Positions 3,527 through 26,049 of a stretch of DNA of 35,649 nt are shown here, piece after piece (the stretch's first letter is position 1; the number at the start of each line of letters is the position of its first letter). The translations under genes and the position numbers were made by a program. Under the pieces are notes generated by a model. That model was not told where the DNA came from. It saw only the letters and a list, made by a program, of their open reading frames with translations, and made no database searches. This DNA is from a virus, in IMG/VR virus record IMGVR_UViG_3300031227_000195, positions 1 to 35,649 of that record. One strand, written 5' to 3'.

Positions 3527-3776
3527 CTTCTAACTCCAATATTTTATTCTTAACTTTGTTAAATTGTTCGGTACATAAGTGTATTTCATCTTTAAGTAAT
3601 AACGCCACAACTAATAAAATATGTTGACGAGTTGCATTAACGAAAACTGTGCGTGAAGCCATTACATGTGACATAAGAACATATTCGTCATGCCAATGAG
3701 GTTGGGTTATCTGAACCAAATTTGGGTCCAATCCAATTTCTTTAAATAGTTCTGTTATTTGTTCAACGAGTTTCAT
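3507..3776 (-). CDS. Hypothetical protein (89 aa)
   Basis: Mostly helical and acidic. It starts [18 protein letters not shown], has a central [11 protein letters not shown] segment, a hydrophobic helix ([10 protein letters not shown]) and an acidic tail ([11 protein letters not shown]). No family recognised. It overlaps the end of the RecA-like ATPase gene by 14 bases and the start of the SEC-C gene by 20, so it is embedded in the replication operon. The hydrophobic helix could be buried in a helical bundle rather than a membrane segment. Confidence 0.6.
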
Positions 3777-4566
3777 CTAACAACTCCCAAAAACTATTAT
3801 CTTTTTTGGTTGCGAATGAGATTACCTCAGCGTCAAGTGTACGGGATTTAGCAGTATAGTAAACTTGTGGTCGGATAAAGAGGGCACGTTCTGTACTACC
3901 CGTTTTCTTTTCACCTTTCACAAAGGTATTGAGATAATCAATTTTAACTACGTGGTCAGCCCATTCTACATACAAAGTCGCGATGCTGGGTTTCCCGGCA
4001 TAAAGATGCGGAATATCCTTTAAATAATCTTCACCAGATGAATTGGCAACTTTCGTAGAAATTGATTGGGCGATTAAGATAACATCCATTCCACGTCTTA
4101 TCAATTTATCACAGCTTCCGAGTATTAGTCGCATAGCGTCATAAAGATGTCTATAACCTTTATTGTAACCATATCCTTCTAAGTTTTTAACCAGAGAATT
4201 TTTAGGACCAGCAGTAGTTTTAAATATCCAGGGTTCAGCCAAATCTTGCAATTTTGTTACGGTATCGACAACAATCGCTTTGGGAATATCTTTAGAAATA
4301 GCCAGATAGTCCAATATACCAAGCACTTCCTGGAATGTTGTAACATCACTTCCTATTCGCTTTAGCGGTTCATTGGTAACCGGATGACGTAGTTTTCTAC
4401 CACCATCATCAATGCCGATAAAAACTACATCTTCTCGTAAAGCTGCCAATGTAGTTTTGCCCATACCAGATTCACCATAAAGAAGGATTTTTTCACCTTC
4501 TTGTCTACCATCCCAATCCTCAATCGGATAGAGAATTTGTCCTTGTGCTCGTGCCGGTTTTTTCAT
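3763..4566 (-). CDS. RecA-like ATPase, Sak4/AAA_24-like single-strand annealing or recombinase
   Basis: 267 residues. Walker A GESGMGKTT (residues 31-39) and Walker B KAIVVDT (D101), followed by VILIAQS, place it in the phage nucleotide-binding (AAA_24/Sak4-type) branch of RecA-fold ATPases. Such proteins promote strand annealing or pairing together with a phage SSB and a nuclease. The neighbours match: a DUF669-like protein downstream and Cas4-like and VRR-NUC nucleases upstream. The ATG overlaps the upstream stop (ATGA), and the box AGGAGACTAAA is made from the last codons of the upstream gene. Confidence 0.8.
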   Translation of the reverse strand: MKKPARAQGQILYPIEDWDGRQEGEKILLYGESGMGKTTLAALREDVVFIGIDDGGRKLRHPVTNEPLKRIGSDVTTFQEVLGILDYLAISKDIPKAIVVDTVTKLQDLAEPWIFKTTAGPKNSLVKNLEGYGYNKGYRHLYDAMRLILGSCDKLIRRGMDVILIAQSISTKVANSSGEDYLKDIPHLYAGKPSIATLYVEWADHVVKIDYLNTFVKGEKKTGSTERALFIRPQVYYTAKSRTLDAEVISFATKKDNSFWELLDETR

Positions 4567-5214: not shown

Positions 5215-5306
5215 TTTAATCTCCAGATAATATAGACAAGAGCAAACGCATCGATAATCAGTTTAGTTATCAACCAACTTATTACTATTAAATCTAATTT
5301 AACCAT
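5211..5306 (-). CDS. Micro-protein, membrane helix with WRLK tail (31 aa)
   Basis: ATG at 5306 lies inside the last codons of the Cas4-like nuclease gene in another frame (8-base overlap). No strong Shine-Dalgarno is visible, so translation probably depends on ribosomes finishing the nuclease. It encodes MVKLDLIVISWLITKLIIDA and ends ALVYIIWRLK. It is moderately hydrophobic and first in the four-gene micro-chain. Function unknown. Confidence 0.45.
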   Translation of the reverse strand: MVKLDLIVISWLITKLIIDAFALVYIIWRLK

Positions 5307-6483
5307 ATTTTCTTTTGAAACCTTCTGGAATTTCATCTGATAAAATTATACGCCGTGCATAACAATAATCCAGATATTCACATTTGAAAGTAGCTTCACA
5401 TTGGTCACCATTTCCAAAACACAAATCATTATCACGCATATATTTTATGGTTTTGGCTATGTTGACCAATTCTTGTTCAAACCCATCAATATCATCCTGT
5501 GTACGTGGTATAATTTTACGAGCAAAATGGTTTCCTGGATTCTGTTGAATATCAGTCAGTAATCTTACCCCATACATAGCGGGACTTTCCTTAATGGCGA
5601 ATGTGCCGTCTTTTCTACCCGATGTATACTCAACAGGAGTGCCATTAACATAAACATCGCGTTCTTCTGATGGTACGTCTACACCAGGACCTGTAACATT
5701 AAATTTTTGACCATAATATTCCCCGGTTTCCACAAAATTTTTACTATCACGCTGAGTAAGATTCTTTGGAGCAGTACGCGGCTTATGCCAAACATTATAA
5801 AGTGTCTTGAATACTGTGCCCTTTGGAACCCCCGGTATCCTACCCATTGATGCCAGTCGATTAGCAGCACACAGATAGATTAAAGTTTGAACATCGAGCG
5901 TTAAATTTCCCCAATAAGTTGAATCTGAATCAATCGAACTACCAGTTGATTTATGTTCCATAATACAATAAAAACCACCGGCTTTATCTTTAAATATTCT
6001 ATCTATTTTACCCACGATTACAACTCCAGGTATGGGTTTGCCATTATCGAAAAGTGGAAGTTTGAATTTTATCTCAGTAGCTACAGTTTCATAATTTTTT
6101 TCATCTTCACTAAAATATTCTATATAACCCATTAAGGAAAAGAGTAATCTATTGCGTTCAACCTCAACATCTTCTGGTTCTTTATTAACCGGAGCAGTAT
6201 TATAAACGTAATCGAGATAATTTCTAACCATGTCGAGGTGGGTATCTGGCAGGACACCCCCGTTCATATCACAGACTGGACATTGAAACAGGTCTTTATC
6301 TTTACATTCTGGACATTCTCCACCCGGTTCCCAGGATAGAATTTCAAGAAGTTTGTGCCAGTTTGAGCCTATTCGCAATGATTCAGTTTCTTCTATCCTA
6401 TGTAAACCATAAATGTAATTATACAGGAATCTACGCGGACAGGATTTAAATGCTCGTATTGAACTTGCTGATAACTTAATCAT
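5299..6483 (-). CDS. Cas4/RecB-like PD-(D/E)XK exonuclease with extra zinc ribbon
   Basis: 394 residues. The N-terminal SCPRRF (C15), conserved H43 in GSNWHKLLE, E137, D161 in GKIDR, E176-H-K178 and Q199 reproduce the RecB/Cas4 nuclease core (PDDEXK_1). A cysteine cluster near the C-terminus (CEATFKCEYLDYC), together with C15, could hold an Fe-S cluster as in Cas4/AddB proteins. An extra four-Cys ribbon (C57, C60, C68, C71) is inserted after the first helix. The expected role is DNA end resection feeding the RecA-like ATPase three kilobases downstream. Its ATG shares a base with the stop of the VRR-NUC gene (TAATG). Confidence 0.85.
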   Translation of the reverse strand: MIKLSASSIRAFKSCPRRFLYNYIYGLHRIEETESLRIGSNWHKLLEILSWEPGGECPECKDKDLFQCPVCDMNGGVLPDTHLDMVRNYLDYVYNTAPVNKEPEDVEVERNRLLFSLMGYIEYFSEDEKNYETVATEIKFKLPLFDNGKPIPGVVIVGKIDRIFKDKAGGFYCIMEHKSTGSSIDSDSTYWGNLTLDVQTLIYLCAANRLASMGRIPGVPKGTVFKTLYNVWHKPRTAPKNLTQRDSKNFVETGEYYGQKFNVTGPGVDVPSEERDVYVNGTPVEYTSGRKDGTFAIKESPAMYGVRLLTDIQQNPGNHFARKIIPRTQDDIDGFEQELVNIAKTIKYMRDNDLCFGNGDQCEATFKCEYLDYCYARRIILSDEIPEGFKRKYG

Positions 6484-6932
6484 TATACAATTCCCTTTAA
6501 TAGATATTCGAGTTCTTCATCCCCATGAATTATGAGATATATTCCATTGTTATCGATTATTCTCTGCCTATGTTTTTGTTGAACTTCTGATAATCTGCCG
6601 CCTTTTCCTCTTTTGCACTCGATTTCCAGGTGAATACCGTTTGGAAGTAGACCAATCAAATCACCAGCACCCATAATTCCATAAGTAGCATAACCATATC
6701 CGAAATCTCCTGCACCCACATCATGTCTACGCATGTAGATGTGTTTTTTCTTAAACCATCTTACACAAAGTTCGAGAACATCTGATTCCGGCAAAATCGG
6801 TACGGGAATAACAGGATGAGTAGGGATGCTGCCGTCCTTAGCTCGACTTCGCTTAGGTTTTTTACCTTGTCTAAGACGAATTATCGTATCCGCATAATCT
6901 TCATATATTTTTCGTTTAGGTCTTTTTTTCAT
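6483..6932 (-). CDS. VRR-NUC domain nuclease
   Basis: 149 residues with a very basic N-terminus (MKKRPKRKIYEDYADTII). The C-terminal half fits the VRR-NUC fold: GAGDLIGLLPNG (D91), LEIECKRGKGG (E105-C-K107) and LSEVQQKHR (Gln 118/119), followed by NNGIYLII. This PD-(D/E)XK subfamily is common in phages as a small stand-alone nuclease, probably structure-specific (Holliday junction or flap). It sits between the TopoVIA-like and Cas4-like genes, and its stop overlaps the next start. Confidence 0.85.
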   Translation of the reverse strand: MKKRPKRKIYEDYADTIIRLRQGKKPKRSRAKDGSIPTHPVIPVPILPESDVLELCVRWFKKKHIYMRRHDVGAGDFGYGYATYGIMGAGDLIGLLPNGIHLEIECKRGKGGRLSEVQQKHRQRIIDNNGIYLIIHGDEELEYLLKGIV

Positions 6933-6941
6933 TTCTTGCTT

Positions 6942-7835
6942 TCAAAAATGCAATTTGTCAAAATTATCTGCTATCGATTGAAGTTTTTCACGCTGTTTTT
7001 CTTGTTTATTTACTAAAATCCGTTGCTTTGCTAAATCAGTCAAAGCCTTAATTTCTTTTGTAATAAGGTCATTTATTGTTCGTGGGTCTAATGCGTCCAA
7101 TTCCCAGGAGTCCTCTCCATACAGAGCCGCATAGGAATGGTAACGGCTATCAGTAATTTTAGCTGGATTTGGCGGTGGTTCATATTCCCCGATTTGATTC
7201 ATCGTAAGGGCGATTCTTTTGATTTTAGTGTCAACCCCAAATACTTCATTAAGCCGCTTATCAATATCATTAGTCATATCAATACCCGAAGGGTCATGGT
7301 CACCCAAATGCAAGATTGTTGCCTTTTTGTGGAATTGAGATTGCAATTTGTTTTCAATCCGGCAAGCCGCTCTCCACATTGCCGATTGACTTGTATAACC
7401 TTTGCAGCTAAAATAAGGAACATCAAGTGGTTCGCAAACACGAGCCAATATACCAGCCAATGCTTCTTTTTCAACCCATACTTCAACATAATTATCCTGT
7501 GTTGCTCTTGTGTCTATGGCATAGGAATTTGCTGCCGATTGGATTATTTCTGATGGTTCGTCCCAATGAGAATTAATTTGTATTTTACGGGTTCTATCTA
7601 CAATAGCATCCCAATCTATTGTCCCAGCAAGTCTGCCATCATTAATAACACCGCCAAGCCGTTTGTACTCTTTTTCCTTATTGAGAATGATTCCCCTTGC
7701 TACGAATTGATAATATAATTGCCTTAAAGTTAATTTATAATCTTCCGCGAAATATTCCGTAATAATATCATTTGCCTGTGTAATTAGATTGAGGGTTGCA
7801 GTTCTAAAATTAAATGCTTTATACAAAATCTTCAT
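6942..7835 (-). CDS. Spo11/topoisomerase VI subunit A-like protein with Toprim domain
   Basis: 297 residues. The N-terminal helix-turn-helix region contains LTLRQLYYQFV (R38, Y41, Y42), matching the R-x-(I/L)-Y-Y signature around the catalytic tyrosine of TopoVIA/Spo11. A Toprim domain follows: VWVEKEAL (E122, E124) and HLGDHDPSGIDM (D179, D181), the acidic metal-binding residues. Length is close to a minimal TopoVIA. No GHKL ATPase partner (subunit B) is visible in the window, so it may nick or break DNA alone, or be a repurposed DNA-binding Toprim protein. It lies directly downstream of the DNA polymerase gene. The start follows AAAGGTGGAAAA-ATG. Fold assignment strong, activity inferred. 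Confidence 0.75.
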   Translation of the reverse strand: MKILYKAFNFRTATLNLITQANDIITEYFAEDYKLTLRQLYYQFVARGIILNKEKEYKRLGGVINDGRLAGTIDWDAIVDRTRKIQINSHWDEPSEIIQSAANSYAIDTRATQDNYVEVWVEKEALAGILARVCEPLDVPYFSCKGYTSQSAMWRAACRIENKLQSQFHKKATILHLGDHDPSGIDMTNDIDKRLNEVFGVDTKIKRIALTMNQIGEYEPPPNPAKITDSRYHSYAALYGEDSWELDALDPRTINDLITKEIKALTDLAKQRILVNKQEKQREKLQSIADNFDKLHF

Positions 7836-7862: not shown

Positions 7863-9806
7863 TTATTTCCCATACCTCTCCATAATCTGTGTCTCTGTAT
7901 CAAGGGGTAATCCCAATGCCCAATCCGGTTTAGTACGCATAATGTGAGTCACGCGTTTTGTCGCTACATCAGCCGCTAAATCGGGAACGATACTTACAAC
8001 ATCATCATGTGATGATAAAACAACCCGGTATTGTTTTTCTATTTCCAAAATCCAATGGGCGAGTAGGTCTCTTGATATGGCCTGTACTACATTTTCTGTA
8101 AGAAAACCGCCCCATATATTTTTGTTCCAGCGATATGCCAATCCTTTATCAATCTTGACTATCACATTTCGGTATTGCATTTCTCTGCCTGATGGTAGAA
8201 CCATAAATACAGATGTCCCTTGCCGATAGAATGTTATTCTATCATTAGATATACTAACTATTTCTGATGGATATTTAATGACCCACCTAAAGGCTTTCTC
8301 AATATCTGTCCAAAATTTAGGGATTTTAAAATATGTACGTCGATATGTGTTGATTAGTTTTTTGACAAAATCAAAATCAAATTTACCCGAATCAAAAAAT
8401 GGGCGAAGATTATCATTTTCACGGCATCGTCTATAAAAGGTTAACGCACCCATTCCATATCCACATCCAAGAATTGCATCCTTTCCGAATCCCCTTTCTA
8501 TAGATATTTTATTTTTTATGAATTTTGGTTCATTCCCTTTTGGTTTCCATATTCTATGACCAAACAGGACGGATGCAAACTTGCTATAAATATCCTTACC
8601 AAGAACAAAATCAGTAAGAAGGTCGTCCTCTCCGGCAAGCCAGGCTAAAACCCGTGCCTCTATCTGTGCTGAATCTGATACACAGAACTTGTGGCCTGGT
8701 GGTGGTTCAATAAGCCCCCTGACAGCAGCTATATAAGGGTGTATGGGCTTACCACGACCCTTACCACCGAAATTCTGAGGATTAATACCACCAGTACCCG
8801 AAAACCGCCCCGTGTGCCCACCATTGAATTTAAGAGGTAAGCCTAATCGACCATCCTTACACTGAGCCTGATTGATGAGTTTCTGAACACGCTTGATATG
8901 GAGCGGCCACGATTTAACGGCTTGTCGAGCATGTGCGAGCTTACGTATAATTTCGTCTTTATGAGTTAGAAGATTTTGCATACCCTGGTCAGTCTTTGCA
9001 AACGCCGGAATAGCACCCCGTTTACCTTGTTTCATTGGAACGCGTTCACCTTTCGGTAAAGCAGCTTTGAGAATCTTCAAAAATGATATGTTACCAGAAA
9101 GTTCAGGAATGGTATATCCAAGATTTTCGGTAACATCTTGTCTCTCCTGTTCCATTTTAGCCATAAGTTTTTTAGCTGCCGGGATATTAAGCCGGACTTC
9201 TTTTTTAAGATAAATATCCAGGGTGTGTTTTGCCAGTTCCAATTCGGATTTATAACATTCTTTTTTCGGTAATAAAATTTCAAATAACTGCCATTCATCT
9301 TCAATATCACGTTTATTGTATTCTATCATCGCCTCTTGTTGTTCAGGTGTAAAATCTTTAGCGTGCAATCCCTCGAATTGCATTGTGTCACCTTTAGGTG
9401 GGAGCTTAAATAACTCAGCCAATTTCTTTAGACTATGTTTCATTTGGGCATCCCATATCCGGCTGAGGTCCTCGATGTCGATAACATAAGGTGGAAAGAT
9501 ATCATATCGTTCTGTTAAGATGCTAATATCGAATTTACTATTCTTGACTATAATGGTTACGTTCTCAAAATTTTTACCATATAGTTGTTTGTAGGAACGA
9601 ATCCAATCATCGACATCAAGATATACTGAGGGTGGAATTGTTATCGCATCAGGTGTCGCTATCATATAACCTACACAAATAGATTCAAATCGTTTATCTG
9701 TAATATACTCGATAATCGACATCTTCTTTAAATTATATTCCTTATCAAAGTATGTCTCAAAATCGACCACCATCAATTTTGTAGGCCAGCTATCAGGCAA
9801 ATTCAT
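7863..9806 (-). CDS. Family A DNA polymerase with 3'-5' exonuclease
   Basis: 647 residues. Exonuclease motifs: VVDFETY (D15, E17), KNSKFD (D93) and YNKRDIED (Y163, D167), so proofreading should be active. Polymerase motifs: motif A VSDSAQIEARVLAWLAG (D378), motif B R438-x3-K442-x7-Y450-G, and motif C SSHDDVV (H600, D601). Motif A has Ser-Ala where DYSQIE is usual, and motif C has HDD rather than HDE. TGRFSGTGGINPQNF (332-346) is the conserved palm/thumb signature. It is the replicative polymerase of the module. The ATG overlaps the upstream stop (TAATG). Confidence 0.95.
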   Translation of the reverse strand: MNLPDSWPTKLMVVDFETYFDKEYNLKKMSIIEYITDKRFESICVGYMIATPDAITIPPSVYLDVDDWIRSYKQLYGKNFENVTIIVKNSKFDISILTERYDIFPPYVIDIEDLSRIWDAQMKHSLKKLAELFKLPPKGDTMQFEGLHAKDFTPEQQEAMIEYNKRDIEDEWQLFEILLPKKECYKSELELAKHTLDIYLKKEVRLNIPAAKKLMAKMEQERQDVTENLGYTIPELSGNISFLKILKAALPKGERVPMKQGKRGAIPAFAKTDQGMQNLLTHKDEIIRKLAHARQAVKSWPLHIKRVQKLINQAQCKDGRLGLPLKFNGGHTGRFSGTGGINPQNFGGKGRGKPIHPYIAAVRGLIEPPPGHKFCVSDSAQIEARVLAWLAGEDDLLTDFVLGKDIYSKFASVLFGHRIWKPKGNEPKFIKNKISIERGFGKDAILGCGYGMGALTFYRRCRENDNLRPFFDSGKFDFDFVKKLINTYRRTYFKIPKFWTDIEKAFRWVIKYPSEIVSISNDRITFYRQGTSVFMVLPSGREMQYRNVIVKIDKGLAYRWNKNIWGGFLTENVVQAISRDLLAHWILEIEKQYRVVLSSHDDVVSIVPDLAADVATKRVTHIMRTKPDWALGLPLDTETQIMERYGK

Positions 9807-14175: not shown

Positions 14176-14409
14176 TTAACTATCCTTTCGTACTTTAACA
14201 AATCCGTAAATATCTGTTTCGATACCCAAATCTAATGAAAAATGTGGTGCGAGCATAATACCGTGTTCATCTATACGTAATATTGCTCCCGCTACTTGTC
14301 TATCACCAGATTCATCAACCACATAAATAACTACTCCATCGTTCCGTGTTTGACACTCAATACGAATAGGTACGTTTTCTTTATCTTTATATAATTTTAC
14401 TTTTCTCAT
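14176..14409 (-). CDS. Tandem-module protein A, copy 2 (77 aa)
   Basis: Starts MRKVKLYKDKENVPIRIECQ and contains VVDESGDRQVAGAILRIDEH. Beta-rich; ends YGFVKVRKDS. It is nearly the same as the protein at 14659-14892 and more distantly like the B proteins (VVVNEKGKT...GFLLNL). Function unknown. Preceded by GGAGGTTTAAA-ATG. Confidence 0.7.
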   Translation of the reverse strand: MRKVKLYKDKENVPIRIECQTRNDGVVIYVVDESGDRQVAGAILRIDEHGIMLAPHFSLDLGIETDIYGFVKVRKDS

Positions 14410-14410
14410 T

Positions 14411-14656
14411 TTAAACCTCCACTATAGCGACTTGAGTGTCTTTGTCAAGTGGCAAATTAAAAAATCGATTAACATTACTATACAGATAGACACCGTTAGA
14501 ACTCAAATTTAACAAAAAACCACTACTTATTGTTTTGCCCTTTTCATTAACTACAACTAAATCTACACCTGTTCTTTCCATTACTGTATTTGGTATTAGT
14601 GTCACTTTAAGGACTTCTTTCGGACTGGTACAAGGTTCGTATATTTCTATTTTCAT
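14411..14656 (-). CDS. Tandem-module protein B, copy 2 (81 aa)
   Basis: Starts MKIEIYEPCTSPKEVLKVTL and contains GVDLVVVNEKGKTISSGFLL then NLSSNGVYLYS. Beta-rich. It is the duplicate of the protein at 14894-15139, identical over the central NEKGKT...VYLYS region. No family recognised. Two bases separate its ATG from the stop of the A copy upstream. Confidence 0.7.
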   Translation of the reverse strand: MKIEIYEPCTSPKEVLKVTLIPNTVMERTGVDLVVVNEKGKTISSGFLLNLSSNGVYLYSNVNRFFNLPLDKDTQVAIVEV

Positions 14657-14658
14657 CT

Positions 14659-14892
14659 TTAACCCTTCTTTCGTACTTTAACATAACCAAATTCGTCTGT
14701 TTCGATGCCCAAATCTAATGAAAAATGTGGTAAAAGCCAAACTCCGTGTTCATCTATATTCAACAATGTTCCATCTGTGGGTCTATCACCAGATTCATCA
14801 ACTGTGTAAACACATGCCCCATTACCCCGTGTCTGACATTCAATACGAATGGGTATATTTTTTTTATCTCCGTGCAATTTTACTTTTCTCAT
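14659..14892 (-). CDS. Tandem-module protein A, copy 1 (77 aa)
   Basis: Starts MRKVKLHGDKKNIPIRIECQ, contains VDESGDRPTDGTLLNIDEHG and HFSLDLGIETDEFGYVKVRK. Same length as copy 2 with scattered substitutions, so the duplication is not brand new. Preceded by GTGGAGATTTAGA-ATG. Function unknown. Confidence 0.7.
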   Translation of the reverse strand: MRKVKLHGDKKNIPIRIECQTRGNGACVYTVDESGDRPTDGTLLNIDEHGVWLLPHFSLDLGIETDEFGYVKVRKKG

Positions 14893-14893
14893 T

Positions 14894-15139
14894 CTAAATC
14901 TCCACTATATCAACTCGACTAATTTCGTCAAGTGGTAATCCAAAAAATTGGTTAATACTGCTATACAGATAGACACCGTTAGAACTCAAATTTAACAAAA
15001 AACCACTACTTATTGTTTTGCCCTTTTCATTAACTACAACTAAATCAACGCCCGTTCTTCCTGTCACTGTAGTTGGTATTAGCATTACTTTGAGAACTTC
15101 TTCTGAACTGGTACAAGGTTCGTATGTCTCTATTTTCAT
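14894..15139 (-). CDS. Tandem-module protein B, copy 1 (81 aa)
   Basis: The ATG at 15139 is chosen over 15157 because AGGAGAGTTAAG precedes it and the length then equals copy 2. Starts MKIETYEPCTSSEEVLKVML; the central GVDLVVVNEKGKTISSGFLL is shared with copy 2. It follows a LETQDEI-family gene. Function unknown. Confidence 0.7.
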   Translation of the reverse strand: MKIETYEPCTSSEEVLKVMLIPTTVTGRTGVDLVVVNEKGKTISSGFLLNLSSNGVYLYSSINQFFGLPLDEISRVDIVEI

Positions 15140-15140
15140 C

Positions 15141-15350
15141 TTAACTCTCCTGTTCATTAAGAAAACGCATTAGTTTCCAGTATTTTTCATTATCAATACT
15201 ACATTTAGTCGTTAGAGCTTTATAAAGTGTTCGGATAAGCGGAGATGCGTCTCCGAGATTCGCGTGATATGTAAACACAAACAACTCATTGATTTCATCT
15301 TGTGTTTCTAATTGGATATTAACCATAACTGGTGCTGATGTTATCTTCAT
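15141..15350 (-). CDS. LETQDEI-family small protein, copy 2 (69 aa)
   Basis: Starts MKITSAPVMVNIQLETQDEI and contains SPLIRTLYKALTTK. Paralogue of 12835-13062, with the same strand, LETQDEI, helix and Tyr-Trp order. It is separated from its sister by the nucleotide genes and the A-B duplication. Preceded by GGGGAATTAAA-ATG, a box formed by the end of the DUF6899-like gene. Function unknown. Confidence 0.65.
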   Translation of the reverse strand: MKITSAPVMVNIQLETQDEINELFVFTYHANLGDASPLIRTLYKALTTKCSIDNEKYWKLMRFLNEQES

Positions 15351-21673: not shown

Positions 21674-21771
21674 TAGTTTTTTCCTTTATAATAACACACA
21701 ACAAAGACTATGATAATTATTCCGATATACATCGCAACCAAAAATTCACTATGTAACAGATAGTTTATCAT
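21673..21771 (-). CDS. Micro-protein, single membrane helix (32 aa)
   Basis: MINYLLHSEFLVAMYIGIII then IVFVVCYYKGKN. One hydrophobic helix with a basic end. The start has only a moderate purine stretch (AGAAGATTGAACA), and the stop overlaps the next gene's ATG. Similar in character to the micro-genes at 5.0-5.3 and 22.6-22.8 kb. Confidence 0.45.
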   Translation of the reverse strand: MINYLLHSEFLVAMYIGIIIIVFVVCYYKGKN

Positions 21772-21782
21772 TGTTCAATCTT

Positions 21783-21920
21783 CTAATTGTTAGCAATAGC
21801 ATCAGCAGCATCACCGGCAGCAATAGCAGCAGCAAGGGCAGCAGCAGCAACAGCAGCAGCTTTTTCGGCAGCAAGGGCAACATCGTTAATAGCAATAATG
21901 AGTTTTTTGTTTGCATTCAT
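21783..21920 (-). CDS. Alanine-rich micro-protein (45 aa)
   Basis: MNANKKLIIAINDVALAAEK then AAAVAAAALAAAIAAGDAAD. About half of the residues are Ala, from GCT/GCC repeats. It would be one long helix, possibly membrane-associated. Preceded by AAAGGAACGAAA-ATG and the first gene downstream of the promoter at 21962-21989. Function unknown. Confidence 0.5.
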   Translation of the reverse strand: MNANKKLIIAINDVALAAEKAAAVAAAALAAAIAAGDAADAIANN

Positions 21921-21961
21921 TTTCGTTCCTTTTTATAAAATTCAGTTAACTTGCTATATAT

Positions 21962-21989
21962 AGTATAGCACACTTTGTCGGCAAGTCAA
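21962..21989 (-). promoter_or_regulatory. Leftward sigma70-like promoter 3
   Basis: TTGACT (21989-21984) and TATACT (21967-21962) separated by 16 bases; the predicted start is near 21955, 35 bases before the ATG at 21920. TGCTATA (21952-21958) and TATAGCA (21964-21970) form a 5-base-spaced palindrome across the -10, a likely operator. Confidence 0.75.
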
Positions 21990-21998
21990 GTAGTTTTT

Positions 21999-22181
21999 CT
22001 AATATCCTGCATTATAACGGCAATGGTCGGAGCAGTGGTCCGGGCCGGGCTGATAACCGTTAACAAGTAAGCCACCACAGTATTGACAGCGATTTTTTGG
22101 TATATCACTATCAATCAAAACTTTCGGGCCGTTCCACTTGCCGGTTTTAACCCATATATCATACGTCTTTTGGTAATTCAT
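21999..22181 (-). CDS. Small zinc-finger protein (60 aa)
   Basis: MNYQKTYDIWVKTGKWNGPK, then CQYCGGLLVNGYQPG and HCSDHCRYN. Four Cys (CxxC...C-x3-C with His) predict one zinc site. Preceded by TTGGAGGTAAAATAACA-ATG. Function unknown; the pattern looks like small phage zinc proteins. Confidence 0.6.
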   Translation of the reverse strand: MNYQKTYDIWVKTGKWNGPKVLIDSDIPKNRCQYCGGLLVNGYQPGPDHCSDHCRYNAGY

Positions 22182-22183
22182 TG

Positions 22184-22354
22184 TTATTTTACCTCCAACA
22201 TATTGGCAATATCTTTTGGTGGTTTGTTCTCCGGCTTATTTTCTAATTGATATGCGGGACATTCATTGCCAGACTTGCCATTATAGCAATAGTCGAAACT
22301 GATACTGCAATTCGGACACTTTTTACAGCAATAAATAAAACCATCATAATTCAT
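22184..22354 (-). CDS. Small Cys-rich protein (56 aa)
   Basis: MNYDGFIYCCKKCPNCSISF, then DYCYNGKSGNECPAYQ. Six or seven Cys in the first 40 residues, probably one or two zinc sites, followed by a polar tail (ENKPENKPPKDIANMLEVK). Preceded by GGGGATTGAAAA-ATG. Begins MNY like its downstream neighbour. Function unknown. Confidence 0.55.
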   Translation of the reverse strand: MNYDGFIYCCKKCPNCSISFDYCYNGKSGNECPAYQLENKPENKPPKDIANMLEVK

Positions 22355-22379
22355 TTTTCAATCCCCTAATAAATGTTAG

Positions 22380-22550
22380 TTAACTTATATGTTTGTTTAA
22401 CTTTGCAAGATATTCGTCATCTGAAAGTATGTTAACCCGGTGCCAATCGTGGAGTAGTTGAAACGTCGATATTTTCAATCTGTTCTTGACCGGTGTTGGT
22501 GCTTTTGTTAGAGCAATAAATCGTGATTCGGCTTTTTCTATTGCTATCAT
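22380..22550 (-). CDS. Small hypothetical protein (56 aa)
   Basis: MIAIEKAESRFIALTKAPTP, then VKNRLKISTFQLLHDWHRVN and SDDEYLAKLNKHIS. Basic, helical. The start is set by AAGGAATGAACG-ATG; a shorter frame from 22557 is less likely. First gene after the promoter at 22593-22621. Function unknown. Confidence 0.5.
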   Translation of the reverse strand: MIAIEKAESRFIALTKAPTPVKNRLKISTFQLLHDWHRVNILSDDEYLAKLNKHIS

Positions 22551-22592
22551 CGTTCATTCCTTTCAATAAATGTTAGTCAACTTGCTATATAC

Positions 22593-22621
22593 AGTATAGC
22601 ATACGTTTCCCGGTAAGTCAA
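22593..22621 (-). promoter_or_regulatory. Leftward sigma70-like promoter 2
   Basis: TTGACT (22621-22616) and TATACT (22598-22593) with a 17-base spacer; the predicted start is near 22585, 35 bases before the ATG at 22550. TGCTATA (22583-22589) and TATAGCA (22595-22601) form the same palindrome as at promoter 3. Confidence 0.75.
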
Positions 22622-22629
22622 GTATTTTT

Positions 22630-22686
22630 TTAACAAAGGACCAGAAAATAAATCAGTATAGTCAATACGTATATTTCCCGTTCCAT
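22630..22686 (-). CDS. Micro-protein, single membrane helix (18 aa)
   Basis: MEREIYVLTILIYFLVLC after AAAGGGCTTAAA-ATG. Very short but with a good ribosome binding site and a full hydrophobic helix. Its stop overlies the edge of promoter 2. Function unknown. Confidence 0.4.
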   Translation of the reverse strand: MEREIYVLTILIYFLVLC

Positions 22687-22697
22687 TTTAAGCCCTT

Positions 22698-22769
22698 TCA
22701 ACAATGTTTCCGATAGAACATACGAACATACAATACGAAAATCAAGAGTAGTGCAATAGGTTCTATCAT
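22698..22769 (-). CDS. Micro-protein, single membrane helix (23 aa)
   Basis: Starts MIEPIALLLIFVLYVRMFYR, ends KHC. The ATG at 22769 is placed seven bases after AAGGA; another ATG lies six bases upstream. Hydrophobic helix then a basic end. Function unknown. Confidence 0.4.
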   Translation of the reverse strand: MIEPIALLLIFVLYVRMFYRKHC

Positions 22770-22803
22770 TTTCATTCCTTTCAATAAATATTGGTCAAAA
22801 CTG

Positions 22804-22977
22804 TTATCTATGACACAACCCAACAGCTACGAATTTTTTGGCAACTTCTTGAACAAAGTGTGCCAGTTCCCAAACAACACCATTATCGACAAGGTGTTGC
22901 CACGCATCGGCCTGTTCGTCTTGTGTTGCGTGTTTACCATAACCCACTACGACTTTAAGAGCTTGTTCGTCTGTCAT
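22804..22977 (-). CDS. DUF7417-like small phage protein, copy 2 (57 aa)
   Basis: MTDEQALKVVVGYGKHATQD, then AWQHLVDNGVVWELAHFVQE and KKFVAVGLCHR. Diverged paralogue of 19837-20016: AWQHL-x-D-x-G, W-x-L and a final G-x-CH are kept, but LQGWFGR is replaced. First gene from promoter 1. The start follows AAGGAAATGAAA-ATG. Confidence 0.6.
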   Translation of the reverse strand: MTDEQALKVVVGYGKHATQDEQADAWQHLVDNGVVWELAHFVQEVAKKFVAVGLCHR

Positions 22978-23026
22978 TTTCATTTCCTTAATAAGTGTTA
23001 GTCGGAACGCCCGACTTGATATACAT

Positions 23027-23054
23027 AGTATAGATTATCCTGTCGGTAAGTCAA
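23027..23054 (-). promoter_or_regulatory. Leftward sigma70-like promoter 1
   Basis: TTGACT (23054-23049) and TATACT (23032-23027) with a 16-base spacer; the predicted start is near 23019, 36 bases before the ATG at 22983. The -10 palindrome is imperfect here (TGATATA / TATAGAT). Probably the first promoter of the early operon. Confidence 0.75.
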
Positions 23055-23081
23055 GTGAAAAATGCCCGGAAAGCAAACTAT

Positions 23082-23108
23082 CTGGTTATACTGGTTGTAC
23101 TGGTTGTA
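23082..23108. repeat. Three tandem 9-mers CTGGTTRTA
   Basis: CTGGTTATA, CTGGTTGTA and CTGGTTGTA lie head to tail. Degenerate units at the same 9-bp period recur at 23163-23207 (CTGGCTGTA, CTGGTCATA, CTGGTTATT). Confidence 0.7.
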
Positions 23109-23265
23109 AGGACAGGGTATAGTAGAAGGCCCTTAACCGAAAATAGCCACACCACGACTTATCTGGCTGTAACAGTTGTGCTGGTCATAAGGATAGTGCT
23201 GGTTATTTCGCAGAGGTCGTGGTGCAAATAGGATTGTACTGGTTGTGTTAATTGTGGGAGTTGTA

Positions 23266-23645
23266 GTGTTCTATACTCCGGGCTTAGGCGACAAGTTGTA
23301 TAGAACACACTTAAACAATTATGATATAAAGAGTTAAGTGAGTATTAGTGGTGTTTACTGTTCTATATGCAAAATGCAATATGGAACACTTAAGTACTGA
23401 TGGTATAGGTGGTTATGACTACTGTTCTATATGTTCTATATAAAAAGCAAGTCAATAGTGTATAGGATATGCTATATATATGAGTATATGCTGTATTGTA
23501 TAGAATATGCGTATATATTTATATGCGTGTAGGGAGCGGTATAGCAAAAGTGTATAGAACATATAGAACAGCTACGGTAAGTTCTTATGGGAGCAGGAGT
23601 TAAGTGTTCTATACAGTATAGAACAAATATGGAACAGTATAGAAC
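23266..23645. repeat. GTTCTATA / TATAGAAC iteron array
   Basis: Ten exact copies: GTTCTATA at 23268, 23360, 23424, 23433 and 23606; TATAGAAC at 23299, 23553, 23562, 23617 and 23638. Variants TATGGAAC at 23380 and 23628, TATAGAAT at 23499. Pairs are 9 bases apart (23424/23433, 23553/23562), or face each other as palindromes (23606-23624, 9-bp arms with one spacer base; 23266-23308, 11-bp arms). Likely binding sites for a replication initiator or regulator. Confidence 0.75.
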
Positions 23646-23751
23646 AGCACAAAATGAACGTGCGTTCCAGGGCTGTTGTCGGTGGAAGTCCCGGACACAC
23701 CAAATAGGACCGTTAACCGCATCACCACATCCCGATTAAGCCAACCAGCGA

Positions 23752-23779
23752 TTGACTACGGCCATAAGTTGACTATGTT
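23752..23779 (+). promoter_or_regulatory. Weak candidate rightward promoter
   Basis: TTGACT (23752-23757), 16 bases, TATGTT (23774-23779). The -10 matches only four of six positions and the first rightward gene starts 300 bases later, so this is tentative. I saw no better promoter before 24085. Confidence 0.2.
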
Positions 23780-24084
23780 AGTGGTAAACATCCCCATATT
23801 TGTTTTAGGCCCTTAGGATTGACGTCAAGGCCCTTGCCGGTGTTCCCTACCTTTACCCACCCGTGCCACCCACGAGAAGTAGGACCCGGAAGTCCGCCAA
23901 CCCCCTAATGGGAACACGCAGACGGCCTTCCCCGGCCAGACATCCCTGTAATCGTTGTAATCGTTATAACTAACATCCCCATTCCCAAATTTTTTGGAAA
24001 ATTTTTTAGGGATATTGCCAAATACTATAGTAAATTGCCCCCTATATAGAGAGACCTACTTTTCTTTCAAAGGATAGTGCTATT

Positions 24085-24630
24085 TTGAGTTGGTTACAGC
24101 AATTAATCGACTGTCTATTTTCCTTTGTTCCACGAATCTGGCTTGTCAATCCTGACGAGGCCGGCGTGCGTATTACTTTAGGGTCTCGCGTCTATCCCAC
24201 ATCCCCCGGTTGGTACTTCTACTGGCCGTTAATACAGGAGTGCATCAAGTTAACGGTTACAGTGCAGGTTAAAGACCTTAGGGCACAAAGCCTGACCACG
24301 AAGGATGGCAAAAATATAATCATCTCTGGAGCAGTTCAATATAAAATCACAGATGCGGGCAAGGCTTTGCTGAATGTCCAGAATTTTGACGAAACTCTGC
24401 AAATCCTGACGACGGGGAGTATTAGCGATTTTATCAGTGATAAGGATTATGCAGATTGTGAGGATATTACTGCCTTTGAGGATGTTCTACTTCGCAAGAT
24501 ACGGGAGACAGCTTCCGGTTTCGGTTTGAAGATTATGAGAGTGTTCATTACGGATTTTTGCCAGTCTAAAACCTATCGCATTGTGGGGATTATGAACAAT
24601 GAAAACTTGCAGCATGAGGAGAGTCGATGA
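24085..24630 (+). CDS. SPFH/band-7 (stomatin/HflK-like) protein
   Basis: 181 residues from a TTG start after AAAGGATAG. A hydrophobic N-terminus (MSWLQQLIDCLFSFVPRIWL) is followed by VNPDEAGVRITLGSR, SPGWYFYWPLI, SLTTKDGKNIIISGAVQYKI and an Ile/Leu-rich helical end, the order of the SPFH domain of stomatins and HflK/C. Such proteins oligomerise at membranes and regulate proteases. First gene of the rightward block; a membrane-anchored serine protease lies 0.7 kb downstream. It is shorter than bacterial homologues and lacks their long coiled coil. Confidence 0.8.
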   Translation: MSWLQQLIDCLFSFVPRIWLVNPDEAGVRITLGSRVYPTSPGWYFYWPLIQECIKLTVTVQVKDLRAQSLTTKDGKNIIISGAVQYKITDAGKALLNVQNFDETLQILTTGSISDFISDKDYADCEDITAFEDVLLRKIRETASGFGLKIMRVFITDFCQSKTYRIVGIMNNENLQHEESR

Positions 24631-25362: not shown

Positions 25363-26049
25363 ATGAGAACCAAAATAGCAATATTGTTAATAGCAATTTG
25401 TTTCTGTGTTATTTCTTTTAGAATTTGTCATTTCAATAGAGCTAATTACGTAGCAAGGAAATGTTCACCATCAGTAGCTTATGTAGAGCTTTATGTAAGT
25501 GATTACAAGATAGGTTCAGCCAGTGGGTTCCTGGTAGCAAAAGGCATACTTATGACTGCTGCACATGTTACAGAACATGCCGATAGAATTGATATTTATT
25601 TTGCAGATAGTAATGAGCCATATAGGTCTGTTGATATTATTACTCCAGATTGTAATGATGACCTCGGTTTTGTAATTTTCAATGCCGATGTTAATTGCCC
25701 GGCTACATTGAAATTTGATAATGATATACCTTATCTCGGTATGGATGTGATTACCATTGGTTCACCGCTTGGTAGGGAACAGTTTAACACAATTTCCAAA
25801 GGAATTTTATCTGGTATAGACCGGAATTTTTGGGATTATGGGAATCCAGTATATCAGATTGATGCCCCAACTACTTTCGGCAATAGCGGTTGTCCAGTTT
25901 TTGATGGCGAGGGTGAGGTTATGGGGATGGTTATATCCGGTTATGATAACGGTGATATTTGTTTTTGTGTAACATCAATGACATTGGAGAGAGAGTTTAG
26001 TAAATTTAAAAATGGTCTAAAAAGGGTAGAATCATGGGAGATAAAATAG
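25363..26049 (+). CDS. Membrane-anchored trypsin-like (HtrA-type) serine protease
   Basis: 228 residues. An N-terminal signal/anchor (ILLIAICFCVISF) is followed by a chymotrypsin-fold protease: GSASGFLVAKGILMTAAHV (H68), CNDDLGFVIF (D99/D100) and TFGNSGCPVF (S175 with oxyanion Gly). No PDZ domain. The catalytic triad is complete, so it should be active outside the cytoplasm or at the membrane. Roles could include host envelope modification, exclusion or lysis; phage prohead proteases are usually of other folds. The SPFH gene lies just upstream. Confidence 0.85.
   Translation: MRTKIAILLIAICFCVISFRICHFNRANYVARKCSPSVAYVELYVSDYKIGSASGFLVAKGILMTAAHVTEHADRIDIYFADSNEPYRSVDIITPDCNDDLGFVIFNADVNCPATLKFDNDIPYLGMDVITIGSPLGREQFNTISKGILSGIDRNFWDYGNPVYQIDAPTTFGNSGCPVFDGEGEVMGMVISGYDNGDICFCVTSMTLEREFSKFKNGLKRVESWEIK

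Follow-up and report, generated by a model that had tools for sequence, protein, structure and literature searches.

What does a gene for a Spo11- or topoisomerase VI A-like protein do in the replication module of a virus when no B subunit lies beside it? The question is raised by one reading frame of the window analysed here, an IMG/VR record taken in full (35,649 bases) that is classed as linear, is possibly a fragment and carries terminase and portal genes. The frame begins with ATG, fills exactly the interval given for it in Table 1, and had been described in an earlier note, made from the bare letters, as a Spo11/topoisomerase VI A-like gene beside a DNA polymerase. The neighbour is indeed a family-A DNA polymerase gene, adjacent and co-directional, which lies directly upstream in transcription across a gap of 27 nt; downstream on the same minus strand follow a small endonuclease-like gene, a PD-(D/E)XK exonuclease gene and, further on, a Sak4-like gene. 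Taken as a whole, the observations are probably best explained by a stand-alone relative of Top6A and Spo11 that would use a partner-free tyrosyl mechanism.

Table 1. Coordinates of the Mini-A gene, its domains and predicted catalytic codons, and neighbouring genes in the window
Feature	Position	Strand	Basis
Mini-A protein, 297 aa, predicted Top6A/Spo11-like DNA transesterase without B subunit	6942..7835	-	PHROG 6247; identity to phage NP1 protein; AlphaFold2 model
Winged-helix domain, residues 11-82, carries LRQLYY	7590..7805	-	Modelled alone; best VIA match Top6A 1d3y
R38 codon, matching M. mazei Top6A R102 in its RxxxY spacing	7722..7724	-	Conserved 182/182
Y42 codon, predicted nucleophile	7710..7712	-	182/182 relatives with the position; hhalign onto second Y of archaeal Top6A LRE[LI]YY
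Toprim domain, residues 114-265	7041..7496	-	VIA match Top6A 1d3y, Z 11.4, rmsd 3.0 over 141 residues
E122 codon, predicted first Toprim metal ligand	7470..7472	-	Conserved 183/183
D179-H180-D181 codons, predicted Toprim DxD metal ligands	7293..7301	-	Both aspartates 183/183; aligned to Top6A D-x-D-P
Family-A DNA polymerase with 3'-5' exonuclease domain	7863..9806	-	PF00476 E 1.7e-17; PF01612; PHROG 17 E 1.9e-84
Small endonuclease-like protein, next gene downstream of Mini-A	6483..6932	-	PHROG 93 E 2e-7
RecB/Cas4-type PD-(D/E)XK exonuclease	5299..6483	-	PF12705 E 7.9e-22; PHROG 1218 E 3e-33
Sak4-like ssDNA-annealing ATPase	3763..4566	-	PF13479 E 8.7e-20; PHROG 124 E 7.3e-22

Elsewhere in the window, a 2.4-kb stretch with small ORFs only and no Rfam match (21674-24084) divides the minus-strand early genes from the plus-strand structural genes, and within this gene-poor interval, with the divergent gene blocks on either side, a 43-base repeat is present in three diverged copies (21949-21991, 22580-22622 and 23014-23056); the first copy, read on the minus strand, resembles a strong sigma-70 promoter (TTGACT, 16 bases, TATACT). 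Near the start of the structural block are an SPFH/Band-7 protein (24085-24630, PF01145, E 3.7e-23) and a trypsin-like protease (25363-26049, PF13365). At 14185-15142 a 483-base two-gene unit is tandemly duplicated, with ~81% matching, and encodes small proteins of 77 aa and 81/87 aa, each twice.

Membership of the Mini-A family

PHROG 6247 ('DNA topoisomerase') matches the whole of the window protein (E 7e-106), and a protein of Pseudomonas phage NP1 is 48% identical to it over 292 aa. The NP1 protein serves as the example of Mini-A in a review that presents the family as truncated Top6A homologues of archaeoviruses and bacteriophages (PMC7614492); Mini-A goes back to Takahashi et al. 2020, as cited in PMC8185306, and is further described in PMC7614492 and PMC11302465. 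Relatives were found in 70 phage records, in 47 plasmid records, mostly of Streptomyces, and at 182 further loci from viral contigs and from bacterial and archaeal genome contigs of many phyla. One of the plasmid proteins, from an 8.8-kb archaeal plasmid, was deposited as 'Topo Mini-A' and is 31% identical to the window protein over 268 columns. With the PHROG match and the phage, plasmid and further-locus matches together, the identification is far beyond chance, and the window protein almost certainly belongs to Mini-A. No family was assigned to it by Pfam, NCBIfam or PADLOC; the Pfam family most often matched by Mini-A members is TP6A_N, weakly so (8 of 61, best E 0.0012).

Compared with the Mini-A proteins already known, the window protein is a direct homologue, virus-encoded, with a Top6A-like winged helix and Toprim and no B subunit, and it shows no difference of substance; it is an ordinary member on a virus contig. 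As described for the family, the gene is carried by mobile elements, here a virus, with homologues in phages and plasmids. Mini-A is a named and described family, so that this gene adds one member and no new principle. The archaeal proteins were called uncharacterised in a 2021 review (PMC8185306), and the literature searched contained no activity assay for Mini-A.

The plasmid members (loci L214-L219) include diverged proteins of Streptomyces, Rubrobacter and archaeal plasmids, at 28-31% identity, and one at 51% from a 15-kb Paenibacillus plasmid; all are annotated as hypothetical only, except the archaeal one. Some relatives are interrupted: the matched stretches of two genome-contig relatives (L120:2164-3057 and L147:10001-10876) contain one in-frame stop each, and the match in RDJL Phi 1 spans two annotated genes, which may reflect decayed copies, split genes or sequencing errors.

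Predicted fold and catalytic residues

An AlphaFold2 model of the window protein, built with 61 relatives, has a mean pLDDT of 91.9 and consists of a winged helix and a Toprim domain. Among the PDB fold matches, only A subunits of topoisomerase VI fall below E 0.001 (1d3y, 3.4e-5; 9o0g, 1.3e-4); a fold search of BFVD gave one weak, unnamed match only. A sequence search of the PDB returned no real relative, the match to 7apx (E 0.004) being short and to a different kind of protein. In the VIA alignments of the Toprim domain, 1d3y is followed by the MksG nuclease (8b7f, Z 10.9), and Spo11 (8uru) reaches Z 9.3.

Because the Toprim domain dominates the VIA match list of the full-length model, the first 112 residues were modelled alone. 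Residues 11-82 align with residues 72-143 of 1d3y (69 residues, Z 7.7, rmsd 2.3), VIA gives other winged helices scores of 6 to 7, and Foldseek with this domain alone gave nothing significant, Top6A heading the list at a best E of 2.3. The model thus points to an N-terminal winged helix for which Top6A is favoured, narrowly, over other winged helices. The comparison with TopoVIA that the earlier note had proposed bears its reading out, in that the domain is predicted to be a winged helix and, of all solved structures, most closely resembles the catalytic winged helix of Top6A. The two aligned ranges are equal in length, which places Y42 on position 103 of the Methanocaldococcus jannaschii protein, its catalytic tyrosine; this agrees with the claim, drawn from a motif, that the second tyrosine of LRQLYY occupies the catalytic position of Spo11 and TopoVIA. 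The corresponding residue of M. mazei Top6A is Y106, and its spacing from R102 is the same as that of Y42 from R38 (PMC13040014).

Conservation was read from an alignment of 183 sequences, 182 of which reach the R38 and Y42 positions. The LRQLYY motif starts at residue 37, so its tyrosines are Y41 and Y42; Y41 may be F in relatives, while Y42 is kept in every sequence that reaches it. Its loss in relatives had been named beforehand as grounds for abandoning the idea. All four acidic residues proposed for the Toprim domain are where the earlier note put them, and E122, D179 and D181 are indeed conserved; the exception is E124, a position held by D in 135 sequences, E in 39 and Q in nine. E118 is conserved in most phage members (177/183) and is V in NP1. 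Even the plasmid members at 28-31% identity retain R38, Q39, Y42, E122, D179 and D181. This catalytic set is the one used by Top6A and Spo11 (PMC13040014, PMC12203943), and conservation indicates that Mini-A possesses both the catalytic tyrosine and the Toprim metal ligands expected of a Spo11 relative.

Considering the sequence link to Top6A itself, a TP6A_N search of the genomes of 19 Mini-A loci found no Top6A-type gene, and archaeal Top6A sequences were for this reason taken from a wider sample. The Mini-A profile matches that of 30 archaeal Top6A proteins weakly in hhalign (P ~0.001, probability ~20%), and within this weak overall match the aligned pairs are collinear, viz. LTLRQLYY with STLRELYY, the glutamate of VEK with that of IET, and DHDP with DGDP. 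No equivalent of the Top6A clasp glutamate (E342 in M. mazei) is conserved across all Mini-A proteins. The candidate E245 (in WELDAL) is E in phage members and Q in plasmid members, and the equivalence is not claimed on that account.

The retained tyrosine bears directly on the chemistry. JetD and MksG, of the Wadjet and MksBEFG systems, are nucleases with a Top6A-like Toprim and act as dimers, and the second rank of MksG among the Toprim matches would suit a hydrolytic nuclease of this kind in place of a tyrosyl transesterase. In MksG, however, the 5Y-CAP domain lacks a tyrosine, and glutamates have been proposed to serve in JetD (PMC10123090), whereas the winged helix of Mini-A always keeps Y42, for which reason tyrosyl chemistry and not hydrolysis is expected of Mini-A. 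PADLOC, moreover, matched neither Mini-A nor five tested genes of the window to its Wadjet models, and no defence model was matched; a JetD-like hydrolase is the least probable of the readings weighed here. Tyrosyl cleavage, by contrast, is very likely the chemistry of Mini-A.

Absence of a B subunit

That no TopoVIB partner could be seen had already been remarked for the window, where absence is weak evidence because the contig may be a fragment; the support comes from family-wide searches. Searches with the GHKL models PF13589 and PF02518 covered 50 viral records (49 related viral contigs besides the window) and 14 phage genomes whose records describe them as complete, and gave no hit over cut-off. 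PF13589 gave none in five Mini-A plasmids, and each search returned a positive result for all 14 control genomes. The absence of a GHKL partner therefore holds at the level of the family.

One sub-threshold exception was followed up. At locus L046 (7765-9231) a GHKL-like ATPase of 488 aa with an HExxH-type C-terminal tail lies 770 bp upstream of Mini-A, as would be expected if Mini-A were one part of a split type IIB topoisomerase whose ATPase is divergent or comes from the host. This gene has no homologue in the other 182 loci and its relatives, found only on one 21-kb contig and in a 485-kb phage genome, are without Mini-A, so that its position is judged coincidental. The tyrosine of Mini-A, in addition, lies ~60 residues nearer the N-terminus than that of Top6A, from which it follows that the N-terminal region bearing the Top6A latch (residues 44-67 in M. 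mazei, PMC13040014) is missing. A split enzyme is, on these grounds, highly improbable.

Set against the known type IIB enzymes, Mini-A shares with the topoisomerase VI A subunit the RxxYY winged helix and the Toprim E/DxD residues, and this subunit is the best solved match for both domains; it differs in being shorter before the tyrosine, in being hardly detectable by sequence and in the lack, in viral records and phage genomes, of the B subunit with a GHKL ATPase that topoisomerase VI possesses. Topoisomerase VIII is likewise a type IIB relative carried by mobile elements, and some of its members act without ATP, that of M. marina relaxing DNA in this way (PMC7614492), yet it combines A and B parts, usually in one homodimeric protein, whereas Mini-A is the A part only, a winged helix and a Toprim in 297 aa. 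Spo11 has the same two domains and catalytic set, and mouse SPO11 alone cuts DNA, becomes linked to the 5' ends and reseals nicks (PMC11922746); Mini-A differs from it as a viral or plasmid gene with no TOPOVIBL-like partner, whose breaks are only predicted.

From these comparisons Mini-A is most likely a 5'-tyrosyl DNA transesterase that needs Mg but no partner, forms a dimer on DNA, and nicks or breaks the DNA and reseals it in replication or recombination. Two copies would meet on DNA, and Y42 of each winged helix would attack the backbone at the Toprim Mg site of its partner (E122, D179 and D181), leaving a 5'-phosphotyrosyl link. As there is no GHKL subunit, ATP-driven strand passage would not be expected and the action would be independent of ATP.

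Genomic surroundings and probable role

Across 14 phages the surroundings of Mini-A are varied and often contain DNA-metabolism genes. Among relatives, the genes met repeatedly beside Mini-A are those for integrase, helicase, polymerase, ParB-like, exonuclease and Sak4 proteins, which is a measure of recurrence and not of enrichment; they were considered as partners, and none is constant. A family-A polymerase is encoded in 11 of the 14 phage genomes (ten strongly), and in RDJL Phi 2 Mini-A adjoins the DNA polymerase; in NP1 one small gene separates Mini-A from an ATP-dependent ligase gene. The plasmids of 8.8 kb (archaeal) and 15 kb (Paenibacillus), on the other hand, have no polymerase among their annotated genes, which indicates that Mini-A is not tied to a phage replisome. 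With neighbours varying so widely, genomic context fixes no pathway.

The role that we tentatively favour over the others is that of a replication swivel, in which Mini-A would mainly make transient nicks or breaks, allow the DNA to swivel and reseal it, relieving torsion on the replicating element.

The same chemistry could also yield breaks that persist and are passed on to the neighbouring exonuclease and Sak4, and Mini-A may then be a programmed break-maker, introducing Spo11-like double-strand breaks into phage or host DNA that are processed by the RecB-like exonuclease and Sak4 and start recombination-dependent replication. The gene order downstream of Mini-A in the window, all on one strand, would fit such a pathway, as would that of NP1, where Mini-A is directly followed by Sak4 and, 2 kb further, by a Cas4-type exonuclease, and that of Fizzles, where a Cas4-type exonuclease abuts Mini-A and a recombinase lies 2.5 kb away; SPO11 alone, moreover, makes double-strand breaks in vitro (PMC11922746). 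A strong Sak4 match is found, however, in only two of the 14 phage genomes and a PDDEXK_1 protein in seven, in a count that left out other recombinases, an additional nuclease would be required to process the covalently blocked 5' end, and some small plasmids that carry Mini-A have no annotated recombinase. We regard lasting breaks as unlikely to be the main role, and quite unlikely the more specific case of a phage-encoded, partner-free Spo11 whose programmed, protein-linked breaks launch recombination-dependent phage replication.

The small plasmids, together with the proximity to phage polymerases, would accord with an initiator-like protein that nicks the origin of its own element to start replication or transfer, a reading in line with the 'nick-maker' of the earlier note, and a tyrosine linked to the 5' end would leave a 3'-OH primer. 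Topoisomerase VI folds are not known to act as initiators, however, and we consider origin nicking improbable as the function of Mini-A. The swivel remains our preferred reading.

Should the programmed breaks prove real, Mini-A would provide a viral counterpart of the initiation of meiotic recombination. Whichever role applies, the family has a wide distribution, from phages and plasmids to genome contigs of bacteria and archaea, and keeps the full catalytic set of Top6A and Spo11 with no partner. Since work published in 2025 showed that mouse SPO11 cuts DNA without its partners, a small relative that is naturally partner-free would offer a convenient test of how this fold controls cutting and resealing by itself, and it is in the biochemistry of the Mini-A family, rather than in the copy found in this window, that the interest lies.
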